DNA of 64,000 bases from Bacillota bacterium (GCA_012842395.1 DUSX01000034.1:258375-322374), one strand, 5' to 3'; shown: positions 1,636 through 57,136, counted from the stretch's first letter. Program-made: numbers and translations. Notes: generated from the letters alone by a model not told the origin.

Positions 1636-2517
1636 CTACCAGCTCACCGCCTCAGCCGCGAGGCGGCGCAATACAGCGAGGTTGCGCGCGTCGTCGTCGA
1701 GGGTTTTGCGAGGAGTCTCGAGGATGAAAGGAAGATGGGCGAGCTTCGTACAGCCGAGAATGGTGCGGAAGCCGTCTTCGCCGATGCATCCCTTCCCGAT
1801 GTCAGCATGACGGTCCAGGTGCGACCCGAGATCTCCGACGGAATCATTGGCGTGCACCAACGCGAGGCTCGTCCAGCCCACGGTGGCCTTCAGCTTTTCA
1901 AGGACTTCCGACAAGCCCTCCGCGGTCCGGATCTCATAGCCTGCCGCGAGCACGTGGCAGGTATCCAAGCATATGCCCAGCGGCACAGCACGTGCCCGGT
2001 CCATGATCTCCATCTGTTCCTCGAACGTCTTGCCTATCTCCGTGCCAGCGCCAGACACCATCTCCAGGAGGAGGCGTGGCTTTTCTGCAGCCCCGTTGCC
2101 CGTCGAGGGCGTGTGACACGCGATCTCGCACGCGTCCACGATCGCCGAGGCGATCCTGGCGATGCCGGCCGCCTCTCCCGAGCCGAGATGGCTCCCGGGG
2201 TGAAACACGAGCATCTCGGCACCGACCGCCTTTGCGAGCATGATGTCATGGGCAAGCGCGTCCCGCGACGCCTCATACGTCTCCTTCTTCGGGGACGCGA
2301 GGTTGAGCAGGTACGGAGCGTGGATGACGAGCGGCTGGATCCCCGCGGCCGCGAGACCCTCCTTGAAAACCCGGGCCTCTTCTTTATCGATCACCCCCGC
2401 CCGGAGGCTTCGCGGGCTTCGCGAGAACATCTGCATCGTGTCACACTTGAGGAAGCGGGCGGCTTCGAGAGCGCTCCGGAGACCGCCGGCCCTGTTCACG
2501 TGGGCGCCGAACTTCAC
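1636..2517 (-). CDS. nfo: Endonuclease IV (AP endonuclease)
   Basis: Zn-dependent TIM-barrel nuclease that cuts 5' to abasic sites in base excision repair. 293 residues, normal length for the family. The metal-site signature is complete: LVIHAPYLLNL, VFHPGSHLG, LLEMVSG, CLDTCHVLAAGY, LVHANDS, HLDRHADIGKG and PFILETP supply the expected His, Glu and Asp ligands. The start is GTG at 2517, preceded by GGGGGTGAT. The stop touches the helicase start. Function is secure from motifs. Confidence 0.97.
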   Translation of the reverse strand: MKFGAHVNRAGGLRSALEAARFLKCDTMQMFSRSPRSLRAGVIDKEEARVFKEGLAAAGIQPLVIHAPYLLNLASPKKETYEASRDALAHDIMLAKAVGAEMLVFHPGSHLGSGEAAGIARIASAIVDACEIACHTPSTGNGAAEKPRLLLEMVSGAGTEIGKTFEEQMEIMDRARAVPLGICLDTCHVLAAGYEIRTAEGLSEVLEKLKATVGWTSLALVHANDSVGDLGSHLDRHADIGKGCIGEDGFRTILGCTKLAHLPFILETPRKTLDDDARNLAVLRRLAAEAVSW

Positions 2518-2622: not shown

Positions 2623-3459
2623 CTATCTGCGCCCGAGGGCGTCCAGAAAGCGCAGGAAAGGATTTCGTTCGATGGCCGCCGTGATGGAGTGACGCTCGGC
2701 GTAAACGTGGACCAAACACAACGCCAGAAGCGCCGCCACTCTTGCCGCCACCGGGGTGGTGAGCGCGAGCCAGTAGCCTAGCGCCGCACCGAGGGGGTTG
2801 CTCCCGGCGTCCCCGAGCATGCCGCGCTCCGCCAGATCGTCCCGAATCTCCGCGAGGATAGCCCCGGCGAGGCCCACCGGAACCAGGGCCGGGGCCCGCA
2901 AACCGGTGGCCACTGCGAGTGCCGTCGCTCCCACCAGGTATGCTTTGGCGGCACGCCCGGGCCTGAGGTCAAGAAGGTTTGAGAGATTCGCCGCGAGGGC
3001 CACCACGAGCGCGTCCAACGCCAGGGCGGGCGCGGGCAGGGCTGGGGCAGCAGTGCGGATGGCTATGGCCGCAGACACCAAGATGACGCCCGCCTTCAGG
3101 AGCCCAGTGGTGACGATCCCCTTCTTGAAGAGCGCGGTCGCATGCCCAGTTATCCCCCGGGACTCGCTCGAACCGAAAAGGTCATCAACTACGCCCGCTA
3201 GCATGGCCGCGTTCACGACGATGAGGCATGGGCCGGCCAAGGCCCAGCTCGCGTCCGGATCCGGCAGGAGGGCCATGACGGCCCCGGACGCAATGGTCGC
3301 CGAGGCTACGAGAGGGATCCCCATTGACGTGGGAACAGGGCGCCCGGCATAGTTCGGCCGGAGGTGTCCCCAGCGCGCCAACATGGCGCGGCCCAGCGGG
3401 ACCAAGCCGAGCGTGAGGATGTACCCAAGCACCAAACACGCCGCCAATGCTCTAGTCAC
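2623..3459 (-). CDS. MraY/WecA-like membrane glycosyl-phosphotransferase (family 4)
   Basis: Polytopic membrane protein of 278 residues with about eight or nine hydrophobic segments. It resembles the polyprenyl-phosphate sugar-1-phosphate transferases: the N-terminal PTSMGIP echoes PT.GG, LAGVVDDLFG carries the paired Asp, NLLDLRPGRA corresponds to the NxxDGxxGL loop, and GMLGDAGSNPLG to the GDxGSxxLG motif. It is shorter than typical MraY (about 320) and the loop motifs deviate, so the substrate is unknown. GTG start at 3459 overlaps the end of the family 2 glycosyltransferase by 8 bp, so the two are translationally coupled. Family inference is good; exact reaction is not known. Confidence 0.75.
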   Translation of the reverse strand: MTRALAACLVLGYILTLGLVPLGRAMLARWGHLRPNYAGRPVPTSMGIPLVASATIASGAVMALLPDPDASWALAGPCLIVVNAAMLAGVVDDLFGSSESRGITGHATALFKKGIVTTGLLKAGVILVSAAIAIRTAAPALPAPALALDALVVALAANLSNLLDLRPGRAAKAYLVGATALAVATGLRAPALVPVGLAGAILAEIRDDLAERGMLGDAGSNPLGAALGYWLALTTPVAARVAALLALCLVHVYAERHSITAAIERNPFLRFLDALGRR

Positions 3460-4174
3460 CCCCCATCCCGGACCGCGGGCGTGGAATGGCGCGGCTCGCG
3501 AGGGCCCGTGTCACCCAATACAGCTGCCGTCCTCTGTGAACGAACCCGGCAAGGTCCCGGCCCGTCACCCTGTGCGACATGTCGCATTCGACCTCCACGA
3601 TGCGGTACCCCCGCCTCGCAGCGTCGATCGTGAGCGCGACCTCCACACCGAACCCCTCGGCGAACGGCACGAGCCCGAGAAGAACCTCACGTCTTGCCGC
3701 CCGCTGGCCCGAAAGTGGGGCCGAGAGGGAGAGACCGCATAAGCATCTCACGCCGAGAAAAGCCAGGGTCCTGACGATGCCGAATCCTCCCCTCTTGGCC
3801 CCGCCGCAGCAGGCCCGCGGGAACGTCGCGATGCTCATGTCCGCCTCGCCGCGCGCAATGGGGTCGACGAGCCTGCCCAGCTCGGACGCTGTCTCAGCCA
3901 GGTCCGCATCGAGAAAGACCACGACGTCCCCGGTGGCACGCAGAACGCCCCGGGTGAGCGCGGCACCCTTTCCCAAGCGACGGCCAGTCTCTATCACGTC
4001 TGCGCCTGCAGCAAGCGCGACAGAGGCGGTCCCGTCCGTGGATCCGTCGTCGACCACGAGCACCTCGCAATCGACACCGCAGGTCCTAGCGGCCATCCTC
4101 GCCGCCGTCACCGTGTCCGCAATGGTGCGCCTCTCGTTGTGCGCGGGAATGACGACGGAAATGCGCCCTTTCAT
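3452..4174 (-). CDS. Family 2 glycosyltransferase (GT-A fold)
   Basis: Soluble GT2 enzyme of 240 residues. Seen: N-terminal ISVVIPAHNE, LVVDDGSTDGT, and the DxD-type FLDADLAET motif, followed by LSGQRAARREVL and a C-terminal HRVTGRDLAGFVHRG, a layout shared with polyprenyl-phosphate sugar and glucosyl-phosphoglycerate synthases. A longer frame opens at 4366, but the ATG at 4174 overlaps the steB-like stop as ATGA and has a GGGGA Shine-Dalgarno nine bases upstream, so it is the better start. Context suggests glycosylation of a lipid carrier together with the downstream MraY-like protein; donor and acceptor are unknown. Confidence 0.85.
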   Translation of the reverse strand: MKGRISVVIPAHNERRTIADTVTAARMAARTCGVDCEVLVVDDGSTDGTASVALAAGADVIETGRRLGKGAALTRGVLRATGDVVVFLDADLAETASELGRLVDPIARGEADMSIATFPRACCGGAKRGGFGIVRTLAFLGVRCLCGLSLSAPLSGQRAARREVLLGLVPFAEGFGVEVALTIDAARRGYRIVEVECDMSHRVTGRDLAGFVHRGRQLYWVTRALASRAIPRPRSGMGGD

Positions 4175-5130
4175 TGTGATAGTCCCCATAGGTCCGGCAC
4201 GCGTATCTCCGAACCGCCCTTGATCCCGAAATGGCCTCTCCACCCGGCGAGCGCGTAGACGAGAGAAAGGCGCCCCAGCGGGAGATCGACGCAGTCGACC
4301 GTGGAGATCCCCTCGCGCCTGTAATCGGCAATCTGCGAGACTTTCACGTTCCAGCCTTCCACACACACCACGTCCACCTGGAGGGCCTTCACAGCTCTCA
4401 CGATGGGGATCCCCGCGTCAGCGGGCGTGAATCCCGGGTCTAGACTGCCCACCACGAGCACGACCGCGTCCGCCCGCCCGCCGCGTCCGCCCCCTCGCTC
4501 CTCCGCGCCCGCAGTATCAGCATCCCCGCTGCCCCCGGGACGAAGCAGGTTCTGCCCGGCCACGGACACGTATCCCAGGTTCAAAAGAGAATGCAACACC
4601 GGCGAGGCTTCGCCGGCCACGAGGTACGCGGCAAGCGCTGAGGCCACTTCCCGTGTCACTACCTCCGCCCGAGACGCAGGCACCCCTAGCGACGACGCGA
4701 ACTCCACGGCTTGCCGGCCGGACGCCGGCGCAAAGCTTCCAAGGACGTCGACCACCCGCACCAGCTGGCCTCCGGCATCCACAATCGCGCGCCCGATCCG
4801 CTCCACCTCTTCGGCGGGCATCGCCTCCCGGCACACCACGATGGCCACCCGCCTTCCTGCAAGCTTCCCACGCACAAGCGAGGCCACCACGGTGTCCTCA
4901 AAGTCGAGAGACGCGGTCAGGGCTCGTTCGGAGGCGGCAAGCCGCGCCCCGAGGCTGTCCCTCTCAGCCTTGAGAGCTGCGAAATCCTCTTCGAGCCGGT
5001 CGATCATCTGCTCCTGCCGCTCGACAAGAGCGCTGTCGGTCACCATCGCGATGCCGACAAGGATGCCCACCCCGAGCGCGAGGAACACAGCCACAAGGGA
5101 GGCCACATGCCATTTCATGTCGATCATCAC
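4171..5130 (-). CDS. SteB/MctB-like membrane-anchored protein (copper transporter family name)
   Basis: 319 residues: one N-terminal transmembrane helix (about 8-30, VASLVAVFLALGVGILVGIA), a coiled coil at about 35-70 (VERQEQMIDRLEEDF...), then an extracytoplasmic alpha/beta domain. This is the architecture of the family annotated as 'copper transporter' (MctB) that pairs with SteA in Actinobacteria, where SteAB works at the septum. Here it follows steA by 61 bp and overlaps the glycosyltransferase start by ATGA, so a role in cell envelope or division is more likely than copper transport. That role is an inference from neighbourhood. Confidence 0.8.
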   Translation of the reverse strand: MMIDMKWHVASLVAVFLALGVGILVGIAMVTDSALVERQEQMIDRLEEDFAALKAERDSLGARLAASERALTASLDFEDTVVASLVRGKLAGRRVAIVVCREAMPAEEVERIGRAIVDAGGQLVRVVDVLGSFAPASGRQAVEFASSLGVPASRAEVVTREVASALAAYLVAGEASPVLHSLLNLGYVSVAGQNLLRPGGSGDADTAGAEERGGGRGGRADAVVLVVGSLDPGFTPADAGIPIVRAVKALQVDVVCVEGWNVKVSQIADYRREGISTVDCVDLPLGRLSLVYALAGWRGHFGIKGGSEIRVPDLWGLSQ

Positions 5131-5191
5131 GAATGGCCCACCCCTTCCGGCCCATCTACCTGCAAGAGCCCCGTGTTAGAAGAGCCCCATC

Positions 5192-6316
5192 CTAGAAGAG
5201 CCCCATGTCGAGCTTGAGCCTGATGATCACGAGCCTCAGGATCTGCCTAGCCATATCGGATTGCACGGCCGCGAGCGTCAGAGGAACCAGCGCGGCCACG
5301 ACGAGGAGGACTATGTAGCCCGTTCTCATGCGGCCCTTGTAGAGCTTGCTCACTCCCTTGGCGTCCACGAGAGCGGAACCCACTTTGAGGCGGGTGAGGA
5401 AGGTAGATGCCATTCCTGGGCGGCCCTTGTCGAGGAAATCCTCGAGGCTCGAGTGGGCGCCGACAGCCACGATGAGCTCCGCGCCGTTCTCGTGGGCGAG
5501 GAGCATCGCCAGGTCCTCGCTCGTGCCCGGAATGGGGCACACGGCGGCGTCGAGGCCCATGCGCCTGATTCGCTCCAGACCAGGGGCCCGGCCGTCCGGG
5601 TAGGCGTGGACCACGATCTCACTGCCGCGTCGCAGCGCTTCATCAGACACGCTGTCCATGTCGCCCACGATGATATCTGGAGAGAAGCCGATCTCGACAA
5701 GAGCGTCCGCCGCGCCGTCCACCGCGATGAGCACAGGGCGTACTTCCTCGATGTAGGACCTTATGGCTCGCAGGTCCTCACGGTAGTCCCTTCCCCGGAC
5801 CACCACGAGCGCATGTCTTCCGGCGATCCTCGTGCGGAGCGGAGGGAAGGGATGGTCGCCGAGGATCGCTGATTTCTCCTGCCGCGCGTGCTCGATGGTG
5901 TTCGACACGAACGCGTCCAGCTCGCGTGAAAGGCCGTGGCGCGCCTTCCCGATCTCGCGCTCGAGCGAAGCCAGCGTCTGGACGCGGCCCATGCCCACCA
6001 CCTTTCCCTGCCTGAGCACGGCGTTCCCCTGCAGCTCAATGACGTCGCCATCCCGGACGAGATCCATGATATGCGGGCCGACATCGTCGATGACGTACAC
6101 GCCGGCCCGGCACAACACGAGCGGCCCCGGATTGGGATAACGACCGCTTACGGACTTACGCGCGTTCACCACGGCCCGTGCCCCCGCGGTGGCGAGCGAC
6201 TCGCACGCGACAACGTCGATGTCCTCGTGGTCGACCACGGCGATCTCGCCGGGACGCAACCGTGTCAGGAGGTTCTTGGTCTTGCGGTCAACCCTGGCGA
6301 CGCCTCTGTACCTCAC
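5192..6316 (-). CDS. steA: SteA-like putative cytokinetic ring protein
   Basis: 374 residues. The N-terminal half matches the SteA pattern (RLRPGEIAVVDHEDIDVVACE, ARAVVNARKSVSGRYPNPGP). The middle has a thiamine-pyrophosphokinase-like fold (DIIVGDMDSVSDEAL, ILGDHPF), and a single transmembrane helix lies near residues 333-352 (TGYIVLLVVAALVPLTLAA). SteA acts with SteB in cell separation in Corynebacterium. The GTG start at 6316 has CGGAGGG eight bases upstream. First gene of the steA-steB-GT2-GT4 cluster and placed just downstream of spo0A, so a link to septation or sporulation is plausible but untested. Confidence 0.88.
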   Translation of the reverse strand: MRYRGVARVDRKTKNLLTRLRPGEIAVVDHEDIDVVACESLATAGARAVVNARKSVSGRYPNPGPLVLCRAGVYVIDDVGPHIMDLVRDGDVIELQGNAVLRQGKVVGMGRVQTLASLEREIGKARHGLSRELDAFVSNTIEHARQEKSAILGDHPFPPLRTRIAGRHALVVVRGRDYREDLRAIRSYIEEVRPVLIAVDGAADALVEIGFSPDIIVGDMDSVSDEALRRGSEIVVHAYPDGRAPGLERIRRMGLDAAVCPIPGTSEDLAMLLAHENGAELIVAVGAHSSLEDFLDKGRPGMASTFLTRLKVGSALVDAKGVSKLYKGRMRTGYIVLLVVAALVPLTLAAVQSDMARQILRLVIIRLKLDMGLF

Positions 6317-6890: not shown

Positions 6891-7670
6891 TCAGCTCGCA
6901 CGCATTTCCAGGCGCAGCTTGTCAGCGACCCTGGCGATGAACGCGGAGTTGGTGGGCTTTCCTTTCTCGCTGCTCACCGTGTGCCCGAACACGCTGTTAA
7001 GGAACTCGATGTTCCCGCGGGTCCACGCGATCTCGATAGCGTGCCGGATGGCGCGCTCAACCCGGGGAGCGGTGGTGTCGAACTTCTGCGCCACCCTCGG
7101 ATAGAGCTCTTTGGTGACCCCATTGAGGAGGCCAACCTCGTTGACGACCATGATGATGGCCTCTCTGAGGTACATGTAACCCCTGATGTTGGCGGGGATC
7201 CCCATCTCGTGGATTATCCGGGTGACCTCGGTGTTGAGGTCGCGCGGGGCCTCGGCTGGACCGGCCCTTCTCTTTCTCACGACCTCCCCGCTCTGGGCCA
7301 CTTGCCGGATGCGCTGGGCCAGCGTCTCCATATCGAACGGCTTGAGTATGTAGTAATCGGCACCGAGCTCGATGATGCTCTGGGTCATGTGCTCCTGACC
7401 GATGGCCGTCAGCATCACGAACCGCGGCCGCCTTGGAAGATCCTGTTTCGCGAGCCGTTCCAGAACGCCTATGCCGTCGAGGTGCGGCATAATGATGTCC
7501 AGGACGACCACATCAGGGTTAGTACTGGATATGCTTTCGAGGGCTTCCAGGCCGTCATAGGCGATTCCGACCACTTCCATATCCGGCTGCATGTTGATGA
7601 ATTCCTTCAAGACCTCGCACAGCTCGTGGTTATCATCGACTATAAGGACGCGTGTCCGACCACAAGCCAT
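6891..7670 (-). CDS. spo0A: Sporulation master response regulator Spo0A
   Basis: 259 residues. N-terminal receiver domain ([10 protein letters not shown] acidic pair, phosphoacceptor Asp in [13 protein letters not shown], Thr in MLTAIG, Lys in ILKPFD), a basic linker, then the Spo0A-specific DNA-binding domain ([60 protein letters not shown]). Phosphorylated Spo0A commits the cell to sporulation. The ATG at 7670 is preceded by GAGGTGG. It follows spoIVB by 120 bp, the standard order in spore formers, and has its own sigma-H-like promoter at 7735-7761. Confidence 0.98.
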
Positions 7671-7790: not shown

Positions 7791-9515
7791 CTATGCGGCG
7801 CGGACCAGCGAAGCACCTCCGGGACTCGGCACGAGCCGCGGTGGAGGGATCGGACCCGCGCCCGCGGCTCTCGCGGCCTTCGCACTTGACTCACGTGCGA
7901 AGAGCCCGGCTTCCCTCGCGAGCCACTCCGCCAGAACGCCGTACCCCCGGGTCTGGTCGGACACGAACACGTGGGTCAGCACGCCCACGAGTTTGCCGTC
8001 CTTGACAATGGGGCTACCTGACATGCCCTGAACTATGCCACCGGTGAGGGCGAGGAGCCTCGGGTCCACTATCTTTATGACGAGGCCCTTGATCTGCGGG
8101 GCCGCCTGCCTCGCCACCCGCTGGATCTCCACGCGGAATCTTTCGACGCGGTTGTCCTCCACCACTGTGTAGAGATCGGCGTACCCTGGCGTCACCTCCT
8201 CGGCCATTGCGATGGGTATGGCCTCCTTGAAGTATGGGTTGCTCGGAACCTTCGTGAGCGTGCCGAAGATGCCGAACTTGGTGTTTCGTTCTATAGTGCC
8301 GATGACGTCCTCTTCCCCGCTGAAGCTCCCGACTTTCTCGCCCGGTTGACCACGGCTGCCGTGGTGGATGCCCAGGATCTGCGCCTGAACTATCCTGCCT
8401 CTCGCCACGTCCACCTCTTTGTTCGTGGCGGCGTCAGTTATGACGTGCCCGAGGGCGCAATATACCCGTGACTCCGGGTCATAGAACGACAGCGTTCCCA
8501 CGCCTGCAGCATTCTCTCGAACCCAGATGCCGATCTTGTACTGCACTGCGGGCCTTCCTTGCTCCGCGAGGCCCGCGGAATCCTCAGCCTCTACCTCAAC
8601 GGGATTCACACGAACGGCTAGGGCCCTCGAATCGCGTAGGATGCTGATCTCGACCGGTTTCCCCGTTCGTCCAGCGAGGTCGATGGCCCGTTCCACCTCG
8701 GACTTGTCATTGACAGCCCGTCCGTTGATGCTCACGATGACGTCGCCGACCTCGATCCCAGCTTCACGTGCTGGGTAGCGACGTTTCCCGTCCACCCCGA
8801 CGACCGGGTAGTGGCCCACGACCACGACCCCCCTCGCGGCGAGCAGCACTCCTATGGCGTGTCCGCCCGGCACAACCCTGACCTCTGGGACCACGCTCAC
8901 AAGGAGGCGCCTGACAGGAATCACGTCCAAGAGCCGCACCTCGAGGCTGGTCTCGCCCTGAGCGAGAGGAACAAGCCTTACCCCAGCGCCCCGCCCGCTT
9001 GGTGTCCCTGTTGCGCCGGATGAGACCGAGTCCATGCGCACCAGCTCCGCGCCTGTCAGGCGGAACCCCACGTCAAACGGGACCCGGACCCAAAGGTCGC
9101 GGGTGGACCCCTCGAGGATCACGATCCTCTCGGGCAGGGTCCCGAAGGTCAAGCAGTACGCGATAGCGCAAGCAAGAATCGCGAGAAGAACGACAGATTG
9201 GGCCCTTGACCTCGTCCTCGCCCTGTCGCCTCTCCGTCCGTCCGAGCCAGTGCCGCTCCCTGCACTGGCAGGTTCGCGAGCCCCACAATGCCCCTGGGGA
9301 CCGTCTGGGGCTTGTCCGCAACGGTCGCCGCATCGGCCTGGACGGCCCTCGTGGCCATGGCCGCGCAGGCTCTCTGCAATCGTGACCGGTATCTCGTTTC
9401 CGCCAACGGTAGTGGAATCGTGCCTGTGGTCGTTCCGACCTTGTGTGCTGGCGCTCGTGTGTCCCAAGCGTGGCAACCCCCGGCAGACGCATCTCGCAGG
9501 CGCCCAAAGTCGCAA
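7791..9515 (-). CDS. spoIVB: SpoIVB serine peptidase (PDZ + S55)
   Basis: Forespore-secreted peptidase that triggers pro-sigma-K processing. Seen: transmembrane anchor near residues 106-124 (SVVLLAILACAIAYCL), LPERIVILEGS, a PDZ domain (about 250-320, REAGIEVGDVIVSINGRAV), and the S55 catalytic part with YCALGHVITDA (His) and GIVQGMSGSPIVKDGKLVGVLTHVFV (nucleophilic Ser). The 574-residue frame has about 100 low-complexity residues before the anchor, longer than the family norm (about 425), so the true start probably lies well inside 9515, but no clear RBS decided it. Confidence 0.93.
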   Translation of the reverse strand: MRLWAPARCVCRGLPRLGHTSASTQGRNDHRHDSTTVGGNEIPVTIAESLRGHGHEGRPGRCGDRCGQAPDGPQGHCGAREPASAGSGTGSDGRRGDRARTRSRAQSVVLLAILACAIAYCLTFGTLPERIVILEGSTRDLWVRVPFDVGFRLTGAELVRMDSVSSGATGTPSGRGAGVRLVPLAQGETSLEVRLLDVIPVRRLLVSVVPEVRVVPGGHAIGVLLAARGVVVVGHYPVVGVDGKRRYPAREAGIEVGDVIVSINGRAVNDKSEVERAIDLAGRTGKPVEISILRDSRALAVRVNPVEVEAEDSAGLAEQGRPAVQYKIGIWVRENAAGVGTLSFYDPESRVYCALGHVITDAATNKEVDVARGRIVQAQILGIHHGSRGQPGEKVGSFSGEEDVIGTIERNTKFGIFGTLTKVPSNPYFKEAIPIAMAEEVTPGYADLYTVVEDNRVERFRVEIQRVARQAAPQIKGLVIKIVDPRLLALTGGIVQGMSGSPIVKDGKLVGVLTHVFVSDQTRGYGVLAEWLAREAGLFARESSAKAARAAGAGPIPPPRLVPSPGGASLVRAA

Positions 9516-56766: not shown

Positions 56767-57136
56767 GTCTCCCCATACCTCCGTGCGCCCGATTAGTTGC
56801 CGTCTCGTGCGGCGTCCTTCTCGGACGCTCGCCAGATCCGCTGTTCAACGGCACTCAAGAGCCTTGCGAGATGGCGAAGGCAAAAAAAAGAAGACCCCAC
56901 CGTGCCGTCTTACCGGTAACATCTCATATCCCTGCGCCCTGCAGGTGGGTGCCCTCCCGGATGTTTTACGTGTCCGCATGACGCGGCGTACGCGCCGCAC
57001 CCGGAGGCCGGGCTCCCTTTCATATGGTGTTGGAACAGAAGTTACCAGCACCACATCGCACACGGTAGGGTCTTTCGCTCTGCGCTTGCGCATCAAGGCT
57101 GCGCCAAAGCAATAATACCACAGCGCCAGCGAGATT
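56767..57136 (-). other. Gap after aspS, with weak intrinsic terminator
   Basis: 370 bp. On the minus strand AAGAC (56907-56911), an 11-base loop and GTCTT (56891-56895) are followed by a run of eight T (56882-56889): a short-stem terminator candidate for aspS. No supported gene is found; the open frames here lack RBS and family similarity. Confidence 0.4.

Follow-up and report, generated by a model that had tools for sequence, protein, structure and literature searches.

Why should the cell-division factor SteA be encoded in one cluster with a glycosyltransferase and a membrane protein resembling MraY? SteA, also known as TapA, is predicted to be essential in Mycobacterium tuberculosis, and its GDP/UDP-binding pocket is unexplained. 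The question is raised by a stretch of 64,000 nucleotides from a Bacillota bacterium (GCA_012842395.1 DUSX01000034.1:258375-322374; hereafter the window), in which spo0A is followed by a gap of 574 bp, steA, a gap of 61 bp, steB, a gene for a GT2-fold glycosyltransferase (hereafter GT2) and the MraY-like gene, all on the minus strand. A preliminary description of this four-gene cluster beside spo0A was borne out by the open reading frame calls and profile scores, as were the overlaps it reported between steB and the GT2 gene (ATGA), and between the latter and the MraY-like gene (8 bp). Neither steA and steB, nor spo0A and steA, are coupled by an overlap. The genes and motifs on which the argument depends are:

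5192..6316, minus strand: steA, identified by NCBIfam NF040608, its solved relatives 9hmy and 9hmz, and its co-occurrence with the MraY-like gene
5651..5665, minus strand: GDMDS motif of SteA, residues 218-222
4171..5130, minus strand: steB, of the MctB family (PF11382, 126 bits)
3452..4174, minus strand: GT2-fold glycosyltransferase resembling GpgS (GT81), identified by PF00535 (97.5 bits) and its AlphaFold2 fold
3902..3910, minus strand: DxD motif of GT2, D89-A-D91, both Asp being invariant among 55 relatives
3701..3712, minus strand: SGQR signature of GT2, S155-R158, invariant among the same 55 relatives
2623..3459, minus strand: MraY-like (PNPT-fold) membrane protein of 278 aa, identified by profile, fold and motifs
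3181..3186, minus strand: D92-D93 of the MraY-like protein, the Mg2+/catalytic pair, identical in 70/70 relatives and found also in the genome's true MraY and WecA
2944..2979, minus strand: N161-LLD164-LRPGR169-AAK172 of the MraY-like protein, in which the N..D of MraY is kept and the GLDG of the uridine loop is replaced by LRPG(R)
2797..2820, minus strand: M214-LGD217-AGSN221 of the MraY-like protein, the second Mg2+ Asp motif, with M214, G216, D217, G219 and N221 in 70/70 relatives

On balance, though by no means firmly, we read these four genes as an ancient division-site module, in which SteA and SteB would act at the septum, coupled to a pathway producing a polyprenyl-linked saccharide. 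Firstly, the transferases travel with steA. Their co-occurrence with steA and steB, on which the preliminary description had staked its grouping, was tested in approximately 200 genomes, and the pairing proved near perfect, with some fusions. Counting as strong orthologs of the MraY-like protein only matches with E below 1e-30, and taking those of approximately 1e-4 to 1e-13 as true MraY or WecA, the gene was present in 67 of the 68 SteA-positive genomes of the window's phylum and in none of the 33 that lacked SteA (101 genomes), with corresponding figures of 46/50 and 0/50 among 100 Actinomycetota. These samples were drawn over species, and the Fisher p values of ~1e-25 and ~1e-23 are uncorrected for shared ancestry. 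At the sole exception in the window's phylum, G114, the contig stops ~14 bases behind steB. In all 61 placed cases in the window's phylum, the MraY-like gene shared the strand of steA and began 0.7-2.4 kb further downstream; in Actinomycetota the strand was again shared in all 43 same-contig cases, at 0.9-7.5 kb downstream. Secondly, GT2 and the MraY-like protein form one polypeptide in three genomes (L085, L153 and L161).

Thirdly, the cluster is conserved across phyla. Among 80 SteA loci and further genomes, most Bacillota have it behind spo0A, and in Actinomycetota it is flanked by recN and pyrG; it is also present in Armatimonadota. Locus contents were counted at loci drawn without sequence patterns, using a GT2 profile made from alignment A2, as an earlier iterated profile had been contaminated with MraY-like sequence through the natural fusion in L085. 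All 20 Bacillota loci, taken from genomes in which both steA and the MraY-like gene had been found beforehand, had the latter, with SteB and GT2 each found at 19; at 41 Actinomycetota loci with the MraY-like gene, SteB was found at 36 and GT2 at 28. Hence the conservation proposed as a check in the preliminary description supports the four genes as one functional unit, albeit one that is not confined to spore formers.

The membrane protein itself combines conserved and divergent features. The window's protein alone had no Pfam or NCBIfam match; PF00953 was matched by 47 of its 70 relatives (E<=0.01), and the profile of their 70-member alignment found a solved PDB MraY with E=1.5e-9. The AlphaFold2 model (pLDDT 96.3, pTM 0.93) belongs to a protein with nine predicted long membrane helices, and each of its 35 best Foldseek matches in the PDB was to MraY or DPAGT1, at a probability of 1.00; its confident PDB matches were likewise confined to these two. 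The residues D92, D93, N161, D164 and D217 are invariant in all 70 relatives, which come from several phyla, and the GD at 216-217 is likewise always kept. Profile, fold and catalytic Asp (DD, NxxD, GD) therefore all place the protein in the PNPT superfamily, and it shares its fold, DD pair, NxxD and GDxG with MraY, WecA and DPAGT1 (PNPT, PF00953). It differs from them in having one membrane helix fewer, the last, in lacking the HHH loop, and in carrying LRPG(R) in place of the (D)GLDG of the uridine loop; the true MraY and WecA of the same genome retain both the uridine and the HHH/HIHH loops, and by these markers the protein is neither MraY nor WecA proper. In MraY, in which roles are ascribed to D193, D196 and D265, the last Asp of GLDG contacts uracil. 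The key Asp motifs previously reported for the MraY-like protein are thus present, except that in the uridine loop Pro replaces the second Asp. A second candidate uridine marker, F262 of MraY, was dropped, as Ile occupies this position in the true MraY of the genome itself. Within the replaced loop, N161, D164, P167 and R169 are found in 70/70 relatives, K172 in 69/70 and R166 in 67/70. The residues particular to the family, relative to MraY and WecA, are H106, K122, R169, K172 and N221, with H106, K122, K172 and N221 being both new in comparison with the genome's MraY and WecA, and invariant or nearly so among the relatives. These alignments suggest an intact catalytic centre beside a remodelled nucleotide site; because the genome already encodes both a true MraY and an enzyme of the WecA type, the protein is best regarded as a further, separate PNPT branch.

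The same divergence could be that of a pseudoenzyme: the MraY-like protein would be a membrane scaffold of PNPT fold that anchors or regulates septal SteA, and GT2 would glycosylate some other target. The replacement of GLDG by LRPG(R), the loss of the HHH loop and last helix, and a pairing with SteA that is strict even without GT2, would all fit such a role. However, a scaffold would not need D92, D93, N161, D164 and D217, which are kept in 70/70 relatives across several phyla, and the protein is fused to GT2 in three genomes, such that we consider this explanation unlikely.

SteA of the window scored 497 bits to NF040608 over positions 4-368, relative to a curated cut-off of 150, and 236 bits against 9hmy, a solved SteA chain, with its C-terminal domain matching PF12555 (47 bits). 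Its GDxDS stretch, a motif with a recognised role in thiamine pyrophosphokinase (TPK), matches PF04263 and PF01973, and thereby resembles TPK and MptE; however, only positions 9-45 of the 113 in the TPK profile align, and the score to the thiamine diphosphokinase model TIGR01378 was 38 bits, below the cut-off of 76.4. SteA would be a membrane-anchored protein with a predicted TPK-like nucleotide site. The 80 SteA loci had been found partly with the pattern DIIVGDMD, biasing the GDMDS count among them, and the count was therefore repeated on genomes drawn without it. The motif GD[MFV]DS was kept in the SteA of 64/64 sampled genomes with the MraY-like gene, whereas it was degenerate in 4/4 SteAs without it (GNPDQ, GNPDE, GDPDK and GDPDK), which have also changed at other positions, such as H30, H237, E267 and H288. 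The solved SteAs 9hmy and 9hmz have GDPDQ/GNPTG at this site.

These four SteAs come from Actinomycetota in which the order is recN-steA-(steB)-pyrG, and they form one fully supported group with 9hmy and 9hmz, which, from their names and sequences, we take to be the Corynebacterium and Mycobacterium SteAs of PMC12977500. In the group containing the solved structures, both the GDMDS motif and the GT2 and MraY-like genes behind steB are gone, leaving recN-steA-steB-pyrG. The grouping suggests that the four genomes belong to Mycobacteriales or near kin, so the only lineage with a studied SteA would be the one without the transferase and with an altered pocket. The window's SteA-SteB pair resembles the studied pairs of Corynebacterium and Mycobacterium (PMC6705760, PMC12977500; as TapA-MctB, PMC12338722) in its NF040608 and MctB matches, and in the adjacency and order of the two genes, but its GDMDS is intact and its steB is followed by the genes for GT2 and the MraY-like protein. 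The SteA of Corynebacterium glutamicum is septal with SteB (PMC6705760) and stabilised by GDP or UDP (PMC12977500), and a possible enzymatic activity has been raised (PMC12338722). It is conceivable, if fairly improbable, that SteA outside Mycobacteriales is a pyrophosphokinase-like or nucleotide-transferring enzyme activating a small acceptor glycosylated by GT2, with the MraY-like protein moving this non-UDP-activated group to polyprenyl phosphate; Mycobacteriales would then have lost this pathway, and kept SteA solely to regulate wall hydrolysis and signalling.

Returning to the division-site module, the strict pairing, the fusions and the conserved catalytic residues together support one pathway ending in a polyprenyl-linked saccharide, which would be the product. 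The donor is probably not a conventional UDP-HexNAc. SteA would be anchored together with SteB at the septum, and would serve as the dedicated nucleotide-binding partner of the transferase pathway, presumably binding the pathway's substrate or leaving nucleotide; by way of SteB and a peptidoglycan hydrolase, it would couple the pathway to cleavage of the septal wall. In Bacillota too, the septum is the likely site. Several observations weigh against this module. Firstly, we know of no activity, product or localisation described outside Mycobacteriales. Septal localisation and the complex with SteB are known only from Corynebacterium and Mycobacterium (PMC6705760, PMC12977500). Secondly, the losses of the MraY-like gene and the SteA motif are a single event on the tree, and as they fall on one branch, their correlation amounts to one observation. 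Thirdly, no GT2 was found near steA at 13 of the 41 Actinomycetota loci, meaning GT2 is not obligatory. Fourthly, although MurJ lies within the cluster segment at 11/41 of these loci, the genomes whose clusters were tested have no other full-length MurJ, and the gene may therefore sit there in a housekeeping capacity; its presence was rejected as proof of a dedicated flippase on the same grounds. Fifthly, at least 12 Bacillota genomes have steB at another location, and in two no steB was found.

SteB of the window is a clear member of the MctB family, its 126 bits exceeding the Pfam gathering score of 25.6. Its apparent loss in roughly one in four genomes of the Bacillota sample was rejected, as most cases reflected relocation. 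In each of 12 Bacillota genomes that lack steB at steA and carry it elsewhere (L122-L133), a gene for an SLT lytic transglycosylase lies within a few kb of the relocated steB, as checked with Pfam in L127, where it follows coaE; this ties SteB again to a wall-cleaving enzyme. Actinomycetota clusters also contain further genes. In Coriobacteriia-type genomes, those for GT2 and the only full-length MurJ adjoin one another on the opposite strand inside the cluster (L101:12019-14302), and a membrane protein of 750-850 aa, with no accepted Pfam or NCBIfam match, is encoded directly before the MraY-like gene (L069:14490-16826, L101:14389-16932, L067:14214-16463), being present at 14/41 Actinomycetota loci. 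In Actinomycetota of the Oleimmundimicrobium type (L064:9213-9995), the start of steA is overlapped by the gene for a membrane protein that weakly matches peptidase M23.

The position of the cluster in the window raises the alternative that it is a sporulation-specific module, controlled by Spo0A and supplying a lipid-linked sugar as a modification of either the sporulation septum or the spore envelope. The flanks of the unit are:

6891..7670, minus strand: spo0A (TIGR02875, 385 bits), 574 bp upstream of steA, a neighbour that is probably outside the unit
7791-9515, minus strand: spoIVB, the upstream flank of spo0A
1636-2517, minus strand: an endonuclease IV gene, following the MraY-like gene

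In 53 of the 68 SteA-positive genomes of the window's phylum, steA lies downstream of spo0A at a distance of at most 2.5 kb, and the location of SteAB downstream of spo0A in Clostridia is already in print (PMC12977500). Adjacency to spo0A, a further check in the preliminary description, is hence common rather than universal, and a Bacillota genome, G055, has the unit with no Spo0A match over the cut-off. Conversely, Spo0A matches over the cut-off occur in many genomes without the unit, which in turn is regular in Actinomycetota, including Coriobacteriia and, without GT2, Actinotignum. The 574-bp gap between spo0A and steA also argues against such a module; a consensus scan of this gap on their strand found no promoter or terminator match, a result compatible with both joint and separate transcription of the two genes. 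Hence a sporulation-specific module is distinctly improbable, and the unit is unlikely to be spore-specific, though it operates in spore formers; of the septal or spore-envelope sugar originally proposed, the division-linked version fits these data, whereas the tie to spores is unsupported, given the Actinomycetota and G055. The window's genome has a second Spo0A-like gene above the curated cut-off outside the window (G000:C18:212629-213393, 252.7 bits), and the window also contains a 6S RNA at 56890-57074 on the minus strand (94.7 bits).

The AlphaFold2 model of GT2 (pLDDT 92.9) is nearest in the PDB to GpgS, followed by MpgS (mannosyl-3-phosphoglycerate synthase), ArnC and DPMS. GT2 shares with GpgS (GT81) a GT-A fold, the DxD motif and an LSG...PFA.G.GVE stretch, and its best NCBIfam match is GpgS (NF010496), although at 113.7 bits it falls well below the cut-off of 262, just as its 87 bits to AglJ fall below 325. 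Its SGQR and C-terminal HRGRQ distinguish it from GpgS, ArnC, DPMS and AglJ, with every curated score far under its cut-off, and the acceptor stretch GRVT of GpgS is not kept in its alignment. Despite the nearest fold, the best match and the housekeeping flanks (recN, pyrG, nudix), it is highly improbable that GT2 makes a compatible solute as a genuine glucosyl-3-phosphoglycerate synthase and shares only a neighbourhood, and no function, with the other genes, as the score is too low, GT2 is fused to the MraY-like protein in three genomes, and neighbourhood alone cannot explain the lack of an MraY-like ortholog in all 83 genomes without SteA.

No mention of the two transferases together with SteA was found in the literature searched, which was one searchable collection; PMC12977500 does not use the word glycosyltransferase, and a search on Clostridioides difficile locus names returned no relevant paper. 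An undescribed relative of MraY travels with SteA in nearly all genomes, bar the few lineages in which SteA has been studied. This suggests that the GDP/UDP pocket of SteA is the remnant of a pathway still held by most SteA-bearing bacteria, comprising a dedicated transferase of the PNPT fold and, in most cases, a GT2, and thereby makes the role of the pocket testable. The family also marks out a PNPT branch in which the nucleotide loop has changed, which is relevant to MraY as a target of nucleoside antibiotics. Finally, these data suggest that Clostridia and many Actinomycetota have, at their division site, a lipid-linked saccharide that has yet to be described.

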